Origin: Haloplanus sp.
Lineage (GTDB): Archaea > Halobacteriota > Halobacteria > Halobacteriales > Haloferacaceae
Assembly (NCBI RefSeq): GCF_028275055.1
Contig: NZ_JAQCNJ010000006.1
Coordinates: 1 to 64,000 of the forward strand
Length of the DNA stretch: 64,000 bases
Direction: 5' to 3'
In this document: in pieces, positions 20,954-43,355 of the stretch
How positions within the stretch are numbered: the stretch's first letter is position 1
Layout: the number at the start of each line of letters is the position of its first letter
Made by a program: the position numbers and the translations under genes
The notes under the pieces: model-generated
Databases searched by the model: none
What the model saw: the letters and a program-made list of their open reading frames with translations, nothing else
Told to the model about the DNA's origin: nothing

Positions 20954-21347
20954 TTCGTTCGTAACCGATCTCGACACGGCCGCCTCGCGGCGACACCGAC
21001 CGAGACGCTCGTTTTCACGATACTACACGCCGAGCGACCGCTCCGGCCGCCGGCGTCAGCCACGGATCGTGTCCTCGTCGTTCATCCGACCACCGACATC
21101 CCACGAGTCACACCGTTCGGTCTCGTCGTCGACGCCCGTGTCACAACACGAGCCTCAAGAGGCCATCGTCGAGCGTCCGGCAGGCCGGTCCGATGGCCCC
21201 GATGGCTCCCGATCCGCCGACAGAACCGCCGCGATGGTCTCGCGGTCCCTCCGTCGGTGTGCCCCGTCACAGGCCGTGCCGGGACGTGGACGGCTACAAA
21301 CGCGGTCGGAACGCAACGTAGTTCCGCCTCGGCCACGAGGCTCCCGC
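20954..21347. other. intergenic stretch between cold shock gene and arcS
   Basis: About 390 bases. The arcS frame is open through much of it but encodes Ser/Arg-rich, non-halophilic sequence. A cgagacgctcgtttt stretch near 21001-21015 could be a weak terminator for the cold shock gene. No gene or RNA is recognised. Confidence 0.45.
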
Positions 21348-23108
21348 ATGACCGAGTACTTCGAGGTACACGGGCGCGACGGGGCCGCCCGTCTGGGCGA
21401 ACTCCGCCTCCGTGACCCCACGACGACGCCCGCTATCGCCGACGATGTCGTCGTCGACGCCGGAAGCCTGTGGGCCGCCGACCGCGACCACCCCACTGGA
21501 ACCGACGCCGAACTGACGATCCTCCCGCATCGGGGCTTCCCCGCAGGGACCGACCCGACCGTACAGGACACCTTCACCGTCGACTATCCCGATGTCGATT
21601 ATCCGAGTGCGGGCGTGATCACCGCCGAGACGGCCGACGACTACGGCTGTGACGCCTACGTTCTCTCGAACGCCGCCGGTGTCGTCGGCCATGGCGCCTC
21701 CTTCCGCGACGAACTGATCGCCGTTCGAGAGGCGATCCCACCGGACACCGCGCTCTACCTCGCCGGCGTCGCGACGCCGGCGAACGTCGCCAGCCTCGTC
21801 GCCGCCGGCGTCGACCTCGTCGACACGAAACTGGCGCGGGTAAAGGGCCGACAGGGGCGTTATCTCACCACGGAGGGCGAGTACCATCTCGACGAACTCG
21901 ACGAACTGCCCGGTGCCTTTCCGTCCGATCCACCGGTCGATGCGTTCGACCGCGAGGCCTGCGTCGATCACAACGTCGCCGTTCTCCGATCCGCGCTCGC
22001 GACCGTCCGGACGCGGATCCGACGGGGCCGGCTCCGGGACTACCTCGAAGGCCAAGCCCGCCACGAGAACTGGCTGACCGCCGCGTTCCGGGAGTTCGAT
22101 CAGGAGTACGGTTATCTGGAGCGACGGACGCCCGTGCTCCGCGACACGGAACTCAGCGCCGCGAGCGAGGACACCCTGAATCGCGTCGAGATCCAGCGGT
22201 TCGCCGACCGCGTGACAACACGTTACCGAAACCGATTCTCGAACCCGCTGGTGCTCGTGCCGTGTTCGGCGCGCAAGCCATACAGTGACTCCCAGAGCCA
22301 CGCCCAGTTCCACCGCGCGATCGATTACCGCGGCCACATCGTCTCGATTACCTCACCTATCGGTGTCGTGCCCCAGGAATTGGAGTGTACCTACCCGGCC
22401 CAACATTACGACGCGGTGGTCACCGGCGACTGGACCGACGGTGAAAAGCGGTTCGTCGCCACGGTGCTGGAACGGTATCTGGAACGCAACGACTACCCGC
22501 GGGTGATCGCCCACGTCTCCGGCGAGGGTTACCGCGACATCTGTGCCCGCGTCGCCGAACGCGTCGACGTCCCCTTCGAGTTCACGGCCGAAGATCACCC
22601 CACCACCGACACCTCGCTCTCGAATCTCGATGCCGCGCTGTCGGGCGAGCTCAGATACTCGAAGCGGGAACGCCAACACAACACGATCCGGGCAATCGCG
22701 GACTACCAGTTCGGCCCCGGTGTAGGCGACGAACTCTTTTCGAACCTGCACACGACGAGTCACCACCCCAAGCTACAGGTACGCGACGGCGACGGGACAC
22801 AGCTCGCGGCGCAGGTGCCACAGTACGGCGTGCTCTCCTTTACACTCGCTGGCGCTCGCCACTGGGCCGAGAGCGACGCGCCGACCAAACGGGTCCAAAT
22901 CGACGGGTTCGTACCTCATGGGAGCGTTCTCGCCCCGGGCGTCGTCGACGCCGCCGACGGGATCCGCGTCGGCGACGAGGTGGTGGTTGAGGGGCCGGCC
23001 GCCTTCGGCGTCGGCCGCGCGGCGATGCACGGCCGCGAGATGCGGGCGAGTACCCGCGGCGTTGCCGTCGAGATGCGCCACGTCGAGGCGACCGAGGACA
23101 ACGTTTAA
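21348..23108 (+). CDS. arcS: archaeosine synthase ArcS (alpha subunit)
   Basis: A 586-residue protein that attaches lysine to preQ0 at position 15 of tRNA; the radical SAM protein RaSEA then converts the adduct to archaeosine. The N-terminal half is a degenerate TGT-like barrel. The diagnostic motif PCSARKPYSDSQSH lies at about residue 304. A C-terminal PUA RNA-binding domain covers about 505-586 (VQIDGFVPHGSVLAPGVVDA, then VGDEVVVEGPAAFGVGRAAM). ATG 21348 gives MTEYFEVHGRDGAARLG, paralleling the TgtA N terminus; the 93-codon extension is rejected. The AOR-like gene starts one base after the stop. Confidence 0.94.
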   Translation: MTEYFEVHGRDGAARLGELRLRDPTTTPAIADDVVVDAGSLWAADRDHPTGTDAELTILPHRGFPAGTDPTVQDTFTVDYPDVDYPSAGVITAETADDYGCDAYVLSNAAGVVGHGASFRDELIAVREAIPPDTALYLAGVATPANVASLVAAGVDLVDTKLARVKGRQGRYLTTEGEYHLDELDELPGAFPSDPPVDAFDREACVDHNVAVLRSALATVRTRIRRGRLRDYLEGQARHENWLTAAFREFDQEYGYLERRTPVLRDTELSAASEDTLNRVEIQRFADRVTTRYRNRFSNPLVLVPCSARKPYSDSQSHAQFHRAIDYRGHIVSITSPIGVVPQELECTYPAQHYDAVVTGDWTDGEKRFVATVLERYLERNDYPRVIAHVSGEGYRDICARVAERVDVPFEFTAEDHPTTDTSLSNLDAALSGELRYSKRERQHNTIRAIADYQFGPGVGDELFSNLHTTSHHPKLQVRDGDGTQLAAQVPQYGVLSFTLAGARHWAESDAPTKRVQIDGFVPHGSVLAPGVVDAADGIRVGDEVVVEGPAAFGVGRAAMHGREMRASTRGVAVEMRHVEATEDNV

Positions 23109-23109
23109 C

Positions 23110-25041
23110 ATGGTCTCCCGACTACCTGCGCCGATGTCATCGTCCCCCCGGCGCGACGTGATCCGGATCGACCTTTCAGCGGGGACCGTCACCCGCGACC
23201 GTGTCCCGGCGTCGTGGCGCCGCGACTACCTCGGCGGAAAGGGGTTGGGTGCCCGCTACCTCTACGACGAACTCGATCCCGGAACGGACCCACTTGGTCC
23301 GGACAACCGGCTTTGTCTCCTTCTCGGACCGCTCTCGGGTTATCTTCCCGGTGAGTCTCGCTACGCGGCGATCACGAAGTCACCGCTCACCGGGGTCTTT
23401 TTGGACTCATACAGCGGCGGCTCCTTTGCCGACGCCCTCGCCGGCGCGCTCCCCGAGGCGTTCGGGTTCGTGATCGAGGGTGTCGCCGACGGCCCTCGGA
23501 CGGTCACCGTCACCGACGGCGAGGTTCGGATCGAGGACGCCGCCGACCTGTGGGGGGCCGACGCCGCCGAAACCGACGCCGCCATCGACGGGTCGGTCGC
23601 TTGTATCGGCCCGGCGGGCGAGAACCGGGTCGCGTACGCGACCATCGCCTCCGACGGCGGCGACCACCACGCCGGTCGGGGCGGGGCCGGCGCGGTGATG
23701 GGAGCCAAACGGCTGAAGGCCGTCGCCGTCCGCGGTGAGCCACCCACCCTCCCCGACGAGTTGGCCGGCCTCCGTGACCGGTATGCCGCCGCCTACCGCG
23801 ACGACGACACCGGCCGGTGGCAGGCCGCCGGCGAGACGGTCGAGAGCGTCGACTTCGCCAACGAGGTTGGCGTTCTCTCGACACGCGGGTGGCAGGGCGG
23901 GCGCTTCGACGACGCGGGCGACATCGGCATCGAGGCGGTCCGTGAGGCCGCGACCGGCCGGGAGAACGCCGAGGACGCGGTCCCCGGCGGTTTCCGGGTC
24001 GACACCGACGAGGGGGAGTCGATCCCCCGCGGCGGCGCGTTGATGTCCCTCGGTGCGGGCCTCGGCGTCGACGACGTCGAGACGGTGGTCCGCTTGGCCT
24101 CGATCTGTGACCGTCTCGGAATGGACGCCATCAGCGCCGGCAACGCGGTGGCGTGGGCGATGCGCGCCGGTGACGGTGTGGGACGTGGTTCCGCGGGCGG
24201 TAGCCCACAGGCCGGTAGCGGAGAGGGGTCACGCTCCCCGGACCCGACCGGCCGATCCGACGGCCTCGACCCCGACCTTTCGTTCGGCGACGCTGACGCC
24301 GCCGCCGCGCTCCTTTCGGCCATCGCCACCCGATCGACAGACCTCGGTGACGTTCTCGCCGACGGCGTGGCACGCGCCGAAAAGCGCCGCGACGGCGGCG
24401 CGGTCCCGACGGTGAAGTCGATGGAACTGCCGTCGTACGACCCCCGCGGGGCGGCCGGAATGGCGCTTGCATACGCCACCAGCGACCGCGGGGGCTGTCA
24501 CCGCCGCGCCCGCCCGGTCGAGCGCGAGGCGTTCCAACGCGACGAGTGGACGACCGCCGACCGTGTCGCCACCGTGATCGGCGCACAGAACGTCCGGTCG
24601 ACGCTCTGGAGCCTCGTTGTCGATGACTTTGCCGGCGAAACCATGTGGAGCGACCTCGGCGCGGAGTGGTTGGCCGCGGTCGGCATCGAGTACGACCGCG
24701 AATCGCTCGCGACGCTTGGCGAACGCGTCTGGACGCTCGTGCGCCTGTTCAACGTCCGCGAGGGGATCGACCGCGCCGACGACTCGCTTCCGGATCTGTT
24801 CGAGGAGCCACTCCCCGACGGCCCGGCCGCCGGTCGGACGGTCGACCGCGAGGCGTTCGACGCCATGCTCGACGCCTACTACGCGGCTCGAGGCTGGTCT
24901 CCCGACGGTGTCCCGACCGCCGACACGGTCGATCGGTTGGGACTACGCGCCGTTGTCGACGACGAAACGCCGCTCGGATCGGCCACCGCGGCGGGTGACG
25001 GGAACACGTCCACCGACGGCCCGCGCGGCCGGGGCCCGTGA
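23110..25041 (+). CDS. AOR-family protein lacking the [4Fe-4S] cysteines
   Basis: A 643-residue member of the tungsten-dependent aldehyde ferredoxin oxidoreductase family. Pterin-cofactor regions are kept: GGKGLGARYLYDELDP, GRGGAGAVMGAKRLKAVAV, and DPRGAAGMALAYATSDRGGCH. The CxxCxxxC triad that should hold the cluster is replaced by NAEDAVPGG, and the fourth ligand region reads NVRSTLWS instead of the paralogue's DICKFNAF. Only four cysteines exist, none in those places. A Gly/Ser-rich linker (GVGRGSAGGSPQAGSGEG) interrupts the second half. Electron transfer to ferredoxin seems impossible by the usual route. It starts one base after arcS; the ATG at 23134 is an alternative start. Confidence 0.85.
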   Translation: MVSRLPAPMSSSPRRDVIRIDLSAGTVTRDRVPASWRRDYLGGKGLGARYLYDELDPGTDPLGPDNRLCLLLGPLSGYLPGESRYAAITKSPLTGVFLDSYSGGSFADALAGALPEAFGFVIEGVADGPRTVTVTDGEVRIEDAADLWGADAAETDAAIDGSVACIGPAGENRVAYATIASDGGDHHAGRGGAGAVMGAKRLKAVAVRGEPPTLPDELAGLRDRYAAAYRDDDTGRWQAAGETVESVDFANEVGVLSTRGWQGGRFDDAGDIGIEAVREAATGRENAEDAVPGGFRVDTDEGESIPRGGALMSLGAGLGVDDVETVVRLASICDRLGMDAISAGNAVAWAMRAGDGVGRGSAGGSPQAGSGEGSRSPDPTGRSDGLDPDLSFGDADAAAALLSAIATRSTDLGDVLADGVARAEKRRDGGAVPTVKSMELPSYDPRGAAGMALAYATSDRGGCHRRARPVEREAFQRDEWTTADRVATVIGAQNVRSTLWSLVVDDFAGETMWSDLGAEWLAAVGIEYDRESLATLGERVWTLVRLFNVREGIDRADDSLPDLFEEPLPDGPAAGRTVDREAFDAMLDAYYAARGWSPDGVPTADTVDRLGLRAVVDDETPLGSATAAGDGNTSTDGPRGRGP

Positions 25042-25217: not shown

Positions 25218-25271
25218 GGTGTGGTTGGCCGGGGTCGGGAGCCTTTTGCCCCTCCGGACGCACGCTCGGAT

Positions 25272-25658
25272 ATGGACGAGTTCGACCTCGGCGTTCCGCG
25301 CCAGATTCTGGAATCGCTCCCTGAAGACGACGAGGCCGCCCGACAGGACATGCAACGAGCCGTCGCGGGGCTTGAGGCCCGCCTCAACGAGACCGTCGAG
25401 GCCGCCGAAACGGAGCGCGAGGCCGCAAGCGGCGTCGCCGACGGCTTGGAGCGACTGGAGGACCAACTCGAACAGTACGACGACTTTGTCCCCGAACTCC
25501 GGGCGTGGGGCCAGTCGCCCATCTACGCCATCGCGTGGCGCAACCTGCAGGCGGATCTTATCATGCAGATCCAGGACGTTGGCTGGCTCGCCGGCCACCT
25601 GGACCGCGAACGGACCTACCGCACCGTCGACGACGGCATCCGCCTGAGCGATATCTGA
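25272..25658 (+). CDS. hypothetical coiled-coil protein
   Basis: A 128-residue protein not recognised. Residues about 20-75 form an acidic amphipathic coiled coil (AGLEARLNETVEAAETEREA, then GVADGLERLEDQLEQYDDF). The C-terminal half has conserved-looking aromatics (ELRAWGQSPIYAIAWRNLQA, MQIQDVGWLAGHL). ATG 25272 (MDEFDLGVPRQ) is preferred to an upstream GTG-led extension. It lies 54 bases after the zinc microprotein and 72 bases before the SAMP1 gene, in one run of genes. The same-strand neighbours suggest a link to SAMP1 or tungsten enzymes; no direct evidence. Confidence 0.75.
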   Translation: MDEFDLGVPRQILESLPEDDEAARQDMQRAVAGLEARLNETVEAAETEREAASGVADGLERLEDQLEQYDDFVPELRAWGQSPIYAIAWRNLQADLIMQIQDVGWLAGHLDRERTYRTVDDGIRLSDI

Positions 25659-25730
25659 GCCACACCCGCACGGCTCCGGCCGCCGCGCGTGGGTCGCGTG
25701 ACTTTTCACTACGGCCGCTCATCCAACGGT

Positions 25731-26012
25731 ATGGATCTGGAACTGCGATTCTTCGCGACGTTCCGCGAGGCTGTCGGTCAGAAGGAGCTTGAACGAGAGT
25801 TCAAGAACGGGTCGACTGTCGGCGACGTTCTCACGACGCTGGAAACGGAGTACGACGGCATGGAGGGACAACTGCTCGACGACGAGGGTGAGCTACAACC
25901 CAACCTCAACATCCTGAAAAACGGCCGCGAGGTGCTCCACATGGAGGGGTTGGACACGGTCATGGAAGACGGCGATACGCTCTCGGTGTTCCCCCCGGTG
26001 GCGGGCGGATGA
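25731..26012 (+). CDS. samp1: ubiquitin-like small archaeal modifier protein 1 (MoaD family)
   Basis: A 93-residue beta-grasp protein ending in the diglycine VFPPVAGG. SAMP1 is adenylated by the E1-like UbaA and either conjugated to protein lysines or used as the sulfur carrier for molybdopterin/tungstopterin. Family features are FATFREAVGQKELE at the N terminus and MEDGDTLSVFPPVAGG at the C terminus. ATG 25731 (MDLELRFFATF) is chosen over the GTG 14 codons upstream. The next gene overlaps the stop by four bases (ATGA). A sulfur-carrier role would suit the neighbouring AOR-family gene. Confidence 0.93.
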   Translation: MDLELRFFATFREAVGQKELEREFKNGSTVGDVLTTLETEYDGMEGQLLDDEGELQPNLNILKNGREVLHMEGLDTVMEDGDTLSVFPPVAGG

Positions 26013-34825: not shown

Positions 34826-35170
34826 CAGCCCCTCTCGGGCGCAGGGTGACACACGGTCGTGCCCGCGTCCCCGTGAGCGCCGTCGACCCGCTTGCTCGTG
34901 ACGATACTGCAACGGGAGTGAATCAGTGGGGGGCACTCCCAAGCCGACCGATGGCCCGCCACCACATTGTAACCCGTCCCTTACCTGGCGGTTCGGCCAT
35001 CGGCTTCCACGGTTCCCGCCGTCGGGACGTCCCATCAACTCCTGTGAACGCCCGGCCGGTGTGCCGACCGCCGACTCGCTCACGGCCGCCACGGACCGCC
35101 TCGCCCGACGGTGCCGAGAGGCGCAACACCGGCGGTGGGTGTTTATACCTCTGACCCTCTACCCGAACCT
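34826..35170. other. intergenic stretch upstream of the J-domain ferredoxin
   Basis: About 345 GC-rich bases. ORFs here are short or lack haloarchaeal composition. The only signal I see is BoxA-like tttata at 35142-35147 just before the ferredoxin start. Confidence 0.45.
35142..35147 (+). promoter_or_regulatory. putative BoxA of the J-domain ferredoxin
   Basis: tttata lies 24 to 29 bases before the GTG at 35171, a leaderless arrangement. It supports the GTG start over the upstream ATG at 35111. Confidence 0.6.
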
Positions 35171-35833
35171 GTGGACGATCCGTACGACGTACTGGGGGTC
35201 AAGCCGGACGCCGACGAGGCCGAGCTAGACCAAGCGTACCGGCGGCGTGTGGTGGAGACGCACCCGGATCAGGGCGGTTCGGTACGTGCCTTCCAGCGGG
35301 TAAAGGCGGCCTACGAGGCCGTGATGAACGACCGGGACGAGTCGGCGCCGGACGCCGACGCTGCGGCCGACACCGAGGCCGACGAGGCGTCCGACGAACG
35401 CCGCGATATCGTCTCCCGTGTTGAGTATCTGGACTACGAGGTAATCCAAGACCGCGGGTGGTCACTCGATGACGACGACCTGTTCGAGAAGGCCTCGACA
35501 GCGGGACTCGACCCGACCGCCTACGGCAAGTTCTTGATCAACCCCGGAGAAACGCTGCTCGAGGCAGCCGAGAATCGTGGGTTCGCATGGCCGTACGCTT
35601 GCCGTGGCGGTGCGTGTGCGAACTGTGCGGTCGCGGTTGTCGACGGCGAGATGGCGACGCCAGTCGATCACATCCTGCCGGCGGAGATGGTCGACCGGGG
35701 CATCCGCCTCTCCTGTATCGGCGCGCCGACGACGGAGACGCTCCAGGTCGTCTACAACGTGAAGGGACTGCCCGACCTCGACGAACTCAAACTCCCCCCG
35801 TATCGGTTCGAGCGGGCGCGGTCGACCGACTGA
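35171..35833 (+). CDS. J-domain / 2Fe-2S ferredoxin fusion protein
   Basis: A 220-residue two-domain protein. Residues about 3-60 form a DnaJ J domain with the HPD motif (VVETHPDQGG), which would stimulate an Hsp70. An acidic linker (DADAAADTEADEASDE) follows. Residues about 120-205 form a plant-type ferredoxin: CRGGACANC near 143 and a fourth cysteine in RLSCIGAP near 179 bind the 2Fe-2S cluster. Haloarchaeal ferredoxins of this kind are known; the J domain may recruit chaperones for cluster or electron-transfer partners. GTG 35171 is chosen from homologue-like start DDPYDVLGV and the BoxA. Confidence 0.92.
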   Translation: MDDPYDVLGVKPDADEAELDQAYRRRVVETHPDQGGSVRAFQRVKAAYEAVMNDRDESAPDADAAADTEADEASDERRDIVSRVEYLDYEVIQDRGWSLDDDDLFEKASTAGLDPTAYGKFLINPGETLLEAAENRGFAWPYACRGGACANCAVAVVDGEMATPVDHILPAEMVDRGIRLSCIGAPTTETLQVVYNVKGLPDLDELKLPPYRFERARSTD

Positions 35834-41337: not shown

Positions 41338-43272
41338 TCAGTCGTCGGCCGGGGCCTGGCCGCTGGAGCCGGAGACGCCCGTGCCGGGGCCGAGGTCGAT
41401 GTCGAGGTGTTCGAGCGTGTCGTCGGTGACGACGCCGTCCTCCCAGCCACGGTGCTCGTAGTACTCGGTCTTCATCTCGCTGAGCTCGCAGAGTTCGCCC
41501 TCGGAGCCACCCTGACCGGGGATGGCCTCGTCGTCGCCTTCGACGAACCGACCCGGGAGCGAGTCGTCCGCGCCGTCGAAGCCGGCGAGGTTGTTGAAGT
41601 AGCGTTCGAGGTTGTACACCCGTTCGCCGGCCGTCATGAGTTCCTCTTCGGTGAGGCCACGGCCGGTCATGCCGTTGTACTGTTTGATGTACTCCTCGAT
41701 GCCCTCCGCGAACGCGTTGAACTTGCAGATGTCGAACGAGTCCGAGATGGCGTGGAGGTCTTGGAAGGTGGCACAGAGTTCGCCCTTGCCTTCCCAGTCG
41801 TAGGGATCGACCTTCTCCGGAATGCCGAGGATCTCGGCCGCCGGGGTGTAGCCGCGCAGGTGGCAGGCACCGCGGTTCGAGGTGGCGTATCCGATGCCCA
41901 TGCCCTTCATACAGCGCGGGTCGTAGGCCGCGATGGTCTGGCCCTTGACGTCGAGGCGGGTGTCGTGTGCGTCCATCTCCTCGGCGGCGCGCTCCGGACC
42001 CTTCGCGAGGAGGTCGCCGAGTTCGCTGTTGCGGTGGCCAACCTCCTCGATGAGGTCGATCATGTGCTCCTCGTCGCCCCAGTCGATGTCGTCGTCGAGG
42101 CCGTCGAGGTAGCCCTTCTCGGTCATCTCCATCGCCATGGCCAGCATATTACCCATGTCGATGGTGTCGACGCCCACGTCGTTACACCGGTCGATCATGA
42201 TCGCGATGGAGTCTCGGTCGTCGTTGCCGGACATGGTCCCGAGGGCCCACGCCGACTCGTACTCGTAGGACTCCATCTGGACGTTCATGTCCTGACCCTT
42301 GTGCTCGTAGTTGACCTCGACCTCCTTTTTACAGGCGACCGGGCAGGAGTGACAGGTCGGCTCGTTGACCAGGATGTTCTCGCGGACGTTCTCGCCGCTG
42401 ATGTTCTCGGCGGTGACGTCGGTCCCTTCCTCGTCGTTCATCGCGAACGAGGAGGTGTACTGGCCGTTCTTTGTCGGGTGGCCGTCCATCTCCTCGGTGA
42501 TGTTCATTAGGACGTTCGTCCCGTACATCGAGAGCGCACCCTCGTTGGGCGCGGTGACGTCGGACTCCTGGATGACCTGCATCGCCTGCCGGGCACCCTC
42601 ACCGAACGTATCGGAGTCCGCAGGCTTGGGCATCTCCGTACCGGCTTTCACGACGACGGCCTTGACGCCCTTGTTGCCCATCACGGCACCGGTGCCGCCA
42701 CGGCCCGAGGCACGGTCGTCCTCGTTGACGATACAGGAGTAGCGGACCTCGTTCTCGCCGGCCGGGCCGATGACCATACAGGAGAGGTTCTTGCCGTAGG
42801 ACCCCTCGACCTCCTCCTCGAGGATCTCGCGCGTCTCGTGGACGCCCTTCCCCCAGATGTGGGAGGCGTCATGGAGTTCGATCTCGCCGTCCTCTGCGAC
42901 GGCGTAGACGGGGTCGTCCGTCTGGCCGTCGAAGAGGATGCCGTCGAAGCCGGCCCACTTGAGTCGAGCACCGGACCAGCCACCGTGGTGGGAGTCCGTC
43001 ACCGTCCCCGTGAGCGGCGACTTCGTACAGATCGCGATCCGGCCGCTCATAACCGCCTGTGAACCGGTCAGCGGCCCGTTCATGAACGCAAGGCGGTTGT
43101 CGGGCCCCAGCGGGTCGACGTCGGGACCGGCGTCGAAAACGTACTTGACGCCGAGCCCACGCCCGCCGATATACTTCTTTGCGTCCTCGTCGTCGACGCT
43201 CCGGTAGGAGACGTCGCCCGAACTGAGGTCGACCTGTGCCACGTTGTCTCTGAATCCGCCCAAGTCTGTCAT
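41338..43272 (-). CDS. aor: aldehyde ferredoxin oxidoreductase (tungsten enzyme)
   Basis: A 644-residue canonical member of the AOR family, oxidising aldehydes to acids with ferredoxin as acceptor and a tungstopterin cofactor. All cluster ligands are present: CHSCPVACK provides three cysteines and DICKFNAF the fourth. Pterin regions GGRGLGVKYVF, GRGGTGAVMGNKGVKAVVV and DPRCMKGMGIGYATSNRGACH are intact. ATG 43272 gives MTDLGGFRDNVAQVDLSSG; the 21-codon extension crosses the promoter. The divergent vanZ gene and a TTAGGCCGGCCTAA palindrome lie upstream. This intact copy makes the losses in the 23-kb paralogue easy to see. Confidence 0.95.
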   Translation of the reverse strand: MTDLGGFRDNVAQVDLSSGDVSYRSVDDEDAKKYIGGRGLGVKYVFDAGPDVDPLGPDNRLAFMNGPLTGSQAVMSGRIAICTKSPLTGTVTDSHHGGWSGARLKWAGFDGILFDGQTDDPVYAVAEDGEIELHDASHIWGKGVHETREILEEEVEGSYGKNLSCMVIGPAGENEVRYSCIVNEDDRASGRGGTGAVMGNKGVKAVVVKAGTEMPKPADSDTFGEGARQAMQVIQESDVTAPNEGALSMYGTNVLMNITEEMDGHPTKNGQYTSSFAMNDEEGTDVTAENISGENVRENILVNEPTCHSCPVACKKEVEVNYEHKGQDMNVQMESYEYESAWALGTMSGNDDRDSIAIMIDRCNDVGVDTIDMGNMLAMAMEMTEKGYLDGLDDDIDWGDEEHMIDLIEEVGHRNSELGDLLAKGPERAAEEMDAHDTRLDVKGQTIAAYDPRCMKGMGIGYATSNRGACHLRGYTPAAEILGIPEKVDPYDWEGKGELCATFQDLHAISDSFDICKFNAFAEGIEEYIKQYNGMTGRGLTEEELMTAGERVYNLERYFNNLAGFDGADDSLPGRFVEGDDEAIPGQGGSEGELCELSEMKTEYYEHRGWEDGVVTDDTLEHLDIDLGPGTGVSGSSGQAPADD

Positions 43273-43355
43273 GGTAACGTGCGTTAGTTGGTTACGCTTC
43301 CAACCTGTTAATCGTTGCTCCGCCGACGTAATCACGTTTGGTTTCGTAACAAGTT

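Follow-up and report, generated by a model that had tools for sequence, protein, structure and literature searches.

A haloarchaeal clade of the aldehyde ferredoxin oxidoreductase family without cluster cysteines, and its possible role in Mo/W cofactor handling

Introduction

What might a protein do which has kept the fold of an aldehyde ferredoxin oxidoreductase (AOR) but not the ligands of its [4Fe-4S] cluster? The question is raised by a gene within a 64,000-nucleotide stretch of Haloplanus sp. DNA (contig NZ_JAQCNJ010000006.1, positions 1 to 64,000), described here as the window. Four cluster cysteines are found in 99% of AOR-family members (PMC10413684). The gene considered here, which we call AOR*, i.e., the cluster-less AOR-family gene, encodes none of the four. 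A first-pass annotation of the window suggested that such a protein, being unable to pass electrons to ferredoxin in the known way, may have a new acceptor, do non-redox chemistry, or serve as a cofactor carrier or scaffold. Features are collected in Table 1, with Pf indicating Pyrococcus AOR.

Table 1. Features of AOR* and of its surroundings within the window.
Feature	Position	Strand	Basis and remarks
arcS, archaeosine synthase alpha, directly upstream of AOR* and co-directional	21333..23108	+	Also in close relatives; near AOR* in 4/39 named loci
AOR*, cluster-less AOR-family gene	23110..25041	+	643-aa translation, AFOR_N/AFOR_C matches, AlphaFold model
Thr243 (Pf second-shell Thr243), kept	23836..23838	+	T in 45/45
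NAEDAVPGG, residues 286-294, where CxxCxxxC cluster ligands would stand	23965..23991	+	Cys absent from columns in 45/45 orthologues
PRGG, residues 306-309, replacing PEYE (Pf Glu311-Tyr312-Glu313)	24025..24036	+	Alignment to Pyrococcus AOR
DRLGMD, residues 334-339, first pterin motif DxxGxD, intact	24109..24126	+	Asp339 in 45/45
Tyr443 (Pf Tyr427), kept	24436..24438	+	45/45
His464-Arg465-Arg466 (Pf His448 and position 450), kept	24499..24507	+	H 45/45, R 45/45
WSLVVDD, residues 500-506, replacing second pterin motif and fourth cluster Cys (DxxGLC)	24607..24627	+	W 45/45 at Pf Asp489, D 45/45 at Pf Cys494
145-aa gene (cluster c18), between AOR* and samp1	25221..25658	+	Pfam/NCBIfam search without match; adjoins AOR* in several genera
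samp1, MoaD-like sulfur carrier of molybdopterin synthase	25689..26012	+	NF041918, 4.9e-32
AOR-family paralogue with complete four-Cys site and Glu313; local reference, outside the module	41338..43335	-	Domain matches, motifs, tree

An AOR by domains and predicted fold

Membership of AOR* in the AOR family, as initially annotated, is borne out. In a domain profile search of the 643-aa product both AFOR domains are matched near full length (AFOR_N, 3.9e-64; AFOR_C, 7.2e-87). The AlphaFold model, at a mean pLDDT of 89.4, matches the solved AORs 1AOR, 9MQX and 9G7J at TM scores of 0.83-0.88 and 29-32% identity, with Pyrococcus AOR 32% identical in the fold comparison. AOR*, that is, belongs by descent to the AFOR superfamily, having both the AFOR_N and AFOR_C domains and the AOR fold. 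The structure modelling which had been proposed as a check on the pterin site recovers that fold, but does so less confidently for the loop with His464 (block mean 59).

Comparison with orthologues points to a different translation start from that of the open reading frame, suggesting Met9 (23134) instead of 23110. As arcS ends at 23108, the two genes abut. The window's AOR* also possesses a Gly/Ser-rich low-complexity insert of low pLDDT (residues 357-391, ~24178-24282), one which is mostly short or absent among orthologues.

Loss of the cluster cysteines

As counted in the first-pass annotation, four cysteines remain in the 643 residues (69, 165, 333 and 463), none of them at the cluster. 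The alignment considered here consists of 45 AOR* and 55 cluster-bearing sequences. At the four cluster columns the window's AOR* reads gap/D/G/D, where all relatives outside of the AOR* clade read C/C/C/C, and across the 100 sequences only two states are seen, i.e., four Cys (55) or zero (45). Loss of all four ligands is upheld, as too is replacement of the CxxCxxxC triad by NAEDAVPGG. Nor are there substitutes: cysteines elsewhere at the cluster, named at the outset as a finding that would speak against loss, were looked for in the alignment, and the four columns are Cys-free in every one of the 45 orthologues. The fourth ligand had been sought in NVRSTLWS, and there the cysteine is indeed gone, but the equivalent of Pf Cys494 falls just after that stretch, i.e., at Asp505 within LWSLVVDDF, with Asp at this position in all 45 AOR*. 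The paralogue at 41.3 kb has, as had been described, CHSCPVACK and DICKF at the corresponding places. Functional AOR and WOR enzymes possess four [4Fe-4S]-binding cysteines, and by that measure AOR* is not one of them.

Changes beside the metal and the retained pocket

Functional positions were mapped from Pyrococcus AOR, whose numbering is used below, with residue roles following PMC12096430 and PMC10413684. A second replacement, absent from the first-pass annotation, lies beside the metal, where Glu313 and its Glu and Tyr neighbours have been proposed as AOR acid-base/proton-relay residues (PMC12096430). The 55 other sequences all have Glu at both 311 and 313, with either Tyr or Phe between them. 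AOR*, by contrast, has Arg at 311 (45/45), Gly at 312 (45/45) and Ala, Gly or Ser at 313 (45/45), with the window's copy reading Arg-Gly-Gly. Among the second-shell residues of AOR, which are Glu313, Thr243, Tyr427 and His448 (PMC12096430), three are kept and Glu313 is gone in 45/45, and this is not the set of a functional AOR.

Much else is kept. Equivalents of Gly95, Arg182, Thr243, Asp343, Tyr427, His448 and the Arg at 450 are invariant in 45/45 AOR*, with that of Arg76 present in 41/45; Gly95, Arg182, Asp343 and Arg450 are among the residues associated with the pterin and Mg. The earlier statement that tungstopterin-binding motifs are retained holds for the first of these (DxxGxD) but not for the second, as DxxGLC, which spans Asp489 and Cys494, has been rebuilt as WSLVVD. 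Loss of Asp489 was considered as a trait specific to AOR* and rejected, since W, F, Y or H is found there in some cluster-bearing relatives. AOR* thus no longer has an electron exit or the acid/base residues, but has kept most of the metal-pterin pocket, and we infer that this pocket would be occupied by cofactor.

A single, conserved clade

Strong AOR* orthologues are found in more than half of 394 genomes of the class (genome search), and named AOR* loci from many haloarchaeal genera come from scanning 85,462 species genomes. In a quick LG+G4 tree the 45 cluster-less sequences form a single clade (SH-aLRT 100), with cluster loss a single change on that tree. The exact replacements recur in 45 orthologues, which come from many genera and mostly have open frames, and dN/dS of 0.19-0.33 versus close and distant orthologues indicates purifying selection. 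A conserved cluster-less clade, the existence of which was to be judged by alignment and tree, thus does exist, and AOR* is not the isolated, decayed copy that would have undone the initial interpretation.

Nearest to AOR* are cluster-bearing haloarchaeal sequences, followed by those of Thermoplasmata and other archaea. This sister group (Haloferax marinum L071, Halorubrum halodurans L074, L116 and L130-L136; L071, L074 and L116 being nearest on the tree) is ~42-45% identical to AOR* but, unlike AOR*, has kept EYET as well as CxxCxxxC and the fourth Cys. Both types occur together in Halorubrum halodurans. A literature search, mainly of openly accessible papers, did not find an earlier description of a cluster-less AOR clade.

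Genomic neighbourhood

The order arcS-AOR*-c18-samp1 is common to the window and its closest relatives, and samp1 adjoins AOR* in G292, G283, L036 and L056 as well. SAMP1 is the molybdopterin synthase sulfur carrier in Haloferax (PMC4443979). Proximity of AOR and MoaD genes in archaea was reported in 2010, in passages that do not mention cluster loss (PMC2948915). The c18 protein is a conserved haloarchaeal one whose gene is near arcS in other genera too. Elsewhere in the window (35111-35833) a DnaJ domain is fused to the N-terminus of a haloarchaeal [2Fe-2S] ferredoxin.

More broadly, 39 named cluster-less loci were surveyed by tblastn with flanks of up to 8 kb, with neighbour families assigned via profile matches of representatives and locus gene calls taken from a simple script. 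Formate dehydrogenase (FDH) alpha is found near AOR* at 24 of these loci, YqeC (TIGR03172) at 17, a TorD/NarJ-like chaperone at 15, a MobA-like nucleotidyltransferase (a match falling below the MobA family cut-off) at 13, a NuoF-like protein at 8 and a tungstate/molybdate-type ABC ATPase at 4. At least one of these or FdhB is present at 34/39. By rough estimate, chance would supply ~0.2 loci for YqeC and ~0.4 for FDH alpha. At seven loci of cluster-bearing relatives there is no FDH, YqeC or MobA; the sister loci L071 and L074 have none of these nearby. Individual arrangements include co-directional yqeC-AOR*-DUF7124 (G266) along with AOR* adjacent to yqeC and mobA-like genes in Haloferax massiliensis (L045). 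Recurrent downstream of AOR* (L141-L143, L050, L057 and others) are genes for a ~711-aa HdrA/MvhD-like polyferredoxin, a TorD-like chaperone and FDH alpha.

A DUF7124 gene abuts or closely follows the AOR* 3' end in 19/39 named loci (e.g., L052:9896-10684). Its product starts with a long disordered stretch and ends in a small alpha/beta domain, and a fold search with its weak AlphaFold model (pLDDT 68.8) returned no significant match.

Co-occurrence with YqeC and formate dehydrogenase

Gene profiling covered haloarchaea, with genomes missing from search output counted as gene-negative. Across 394 haloarchaeal genomes AOR* is found in 220, YqeC in 273 and both in 218. The two with AOR* but not YqeC are incomplete assemblies. 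One is G366 (85% complete); the other is the draft to which the window itself belongs (79%), and here yqeC is predicted to be present in the full genome. When AOR* is shuffled within genera, a mean of 29.7 such exceptions is seen (minimum 19) versus the 2 observed, the shuffling having used 221/219 genomes (AOR*/both) instead of the final 220/218. In many genera, genomes which are without YqeC are also without AOR*. The converse is looser, as 55 genomes have YqeC but not AOR*. A profile re-search of 56 YqeC-only genomes supplied one AOR*, split over contigs (G309), and one cluster-bearing sister (G247). Five borderline genomes (G032, G164, G265, G342 and G350) have the cluster-bearing sister rather than AOR*, and 5/6 of genomes with solely the sister type are without YqeC. 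Some haloarchaeal genomes have two YqeC copies.

With FDH status taken from best E-values, strong FDH-alpha matches are present in 207/220 AOR* genomes. The other 13, two of which have the long-FDH N-terminal region, imply that FDH is not the sole possible client. That AOR* is tied only to the long, NuoG-type FDH was rejected, as the N-terminal region is matched in only 155/394 genomes, and most of the close relatives of the window's genome give no match. Together with the neighbourhood survey, these counts give AOR* the genomic linkage to, and co-occurrence with, cofactor-maturation genes and clients that one looks for in a carrier or insertion protein.

Proposed function and its alternatives

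AOR* probably handles cofactor instead of oxidising aldehydes: the cluster and catalytic acid have been lost, the pocket is kept, and the gene is found with cofactor-building and FDH genes. More specifically, it is about an even bet, in our estimation, that AOR* is a non-redox AOR descendant which binds Mo/W-(bis)pterin and hands it on during the maturation of FDH-type enzymes. That reading is based on a dead redox site, a retained pocket, the near-obligate presence of YqeC, which is an accessory protein of Mo enzymes, and neighbours which make, load and use bis-MGD. The pterin binding, the non-redox nature and the step of action are all arrived at indirectly. Counting against this role are the 55 YqeC genomes without AOR* and MobA proximity at 13/39 loci only. 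So too do the rebuilt second pterin motif, the 13 AOR* genomes without a strong FDH-alpha match, and the outcome of yqeC deletion in C. difficile (see below).

As a mechanism, AOR*, a descendant of tungsten aldehyde oxidoreductases, would have given up redox catalysis. It would take up Mo- or W-molybdopterin and hold it as non-nucleotide (bis-)MPT, the form typical of AOR-fold proteins. Helped by YqeC, it would pass this to the MobA-like guanylyltransferase and TorD-like chaperone, with final insertion into FDH and related enzymes. The order, speculatively, could be MoeA, AOR*/YqeC, MobA, TorD-like chaperone and then enzyme. A narrower version, possible but distinctly more tentative, has AOR* as a dedicated bis-molybdopterin assembly scaffold or carrier, pairing two (Mo/W-)MPT before MobA adds nucleotides, with YqeC driving loading or release in a non-selenium context. 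Given the rebuilt second pterin motif, one pterin or more would have to take up a different position, and AOR* might bind only one MPT, or none.

Binding none leads to an unlikely alternative, which is that AOR* has stopped binding pterin and is now a pseudoenzyme with a structural or regulatory job, e.g., as a scaffold for, or subunit with, FDH, YqeC or DUF7124 proteins. The rebuilt cluster side, where invariant Arg307 and Asp505 replace Glu311 and Cys494, fits with this, as does the abutting DUF7124 gene conserved at many loci, but invariance over 45 sequences of residues contacting phosphate, pterin and metal would be unexpected of an empty pocket. AOR* as still an enzyme of formate or aldehyde metabolism we consider slightly less likely again, whether its W/Mo-pterin would serve non-redox chemistry or a redox reaction whose acceptor docks at the pterin itself. 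Although the metal-facing equivalents of Thr243, Tyr427 and His448 are invariant and there is linkage to FDH operons, the tightest partner is YqeC, which is no metabolic enzyme, and Glu311, Tyr312 and Glu313, conserved in the other sequences compared, have gone along with the cluster in 45/45. That joint loss weakens the new electron acceptor among the options of the first-pass annotation, whereas gene context favours its carrier or scaffold. Improbable, in turn, is a Mo/W cofactor sensor or buffer controlling cofactor supply or Mo-enzyme expression; a ligand-binding pseudoenzyme could act as a sensor, and the genomic linkage would be the same, but neither the domain search nor the AlphaFold model has a DNA-binding or signalling domain. 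A decayed paralogue or sequencing artefact may be dismissed given mostly open frames, purifying selection and a single supported clade of 45 orthologues sharing exact replacements over many genera.

Comparison with known systems

Cofactor handling by AOR* may be compared with several known systems. TorD, XdhC, FdhD and MoeA1-MobB share the proposed job, that of holding Mo/W cofactor and delivering it to FDH-type enzymes. To our knowledge, their folds are other than that of AOR, and none is derived from AOR. MoeA1-MobB is a cofactor platform in Methylorubrum extorquens (PMC13197769). With AOR/WOR enzymes (Pyrococcus AOR, 1AOR; C. autoethanogenum, 9G7J) AOR* shares the fold, AFOR_N/AFOR_C, the first pterin motif and Arg182/Thr243/Asp343/Tyr427/His448, but it differs in being without cluster Cys and Glu313, in its changed second pterin motif, and in its context of cofactor maturation and FDH.

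Within the family, E. coli YdhV offers a precedent for the role proposed. Purified YdhV lacking a functional cluster was found to retain bis-Mo-MPT, and from its extracted cofactor MobA can make bis-MGD that activates TorA (PMC9103625). YdhV (WOR clade 41, Class V) differs from AOR* in belonging to a class that has cluster cysteines and in having a redox-active cofactor, with transfer from YdhV seen in vitro only.

YqeC has so far served just to mark selenium-dependent Mo hydroxylases (PMC2276186), and its deletion in C. difficile gave no clear phenotype (PMC11448449). The YqeB/YqeC/SelD module of those enzymes has YqeC and a MobA-like nucleotidyltransferase gene in common with the AOR* context; in haloarchaea YqeC, the module member profiled, is linked to AOR* and FDH. 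YqeC is widespread in haloarchaea, though its selenium role was proposed from SelD-bearing organisms. The AOR* partnership suggests a YqeC role that is broader than the selenium context.

Significance

As four cysteines are present in 99% of the family (PMC10413684) and yet a large, conserved clade is cluster-less, the AOR fold is put to use beyond known redox catalysis. Because Haloferax massiliensis has AOR*, the proposal is testable within a genetically tractable genus. The near-obligate AOR*-yqeC partnership provides a handle on YqeC, a protein without a proven biochemical role, and linkage to FDH points to a missing maturation factor for Mo/W cofactor, including for the step, as yet poorly understood, at which the bis-pterin intermediate forms.
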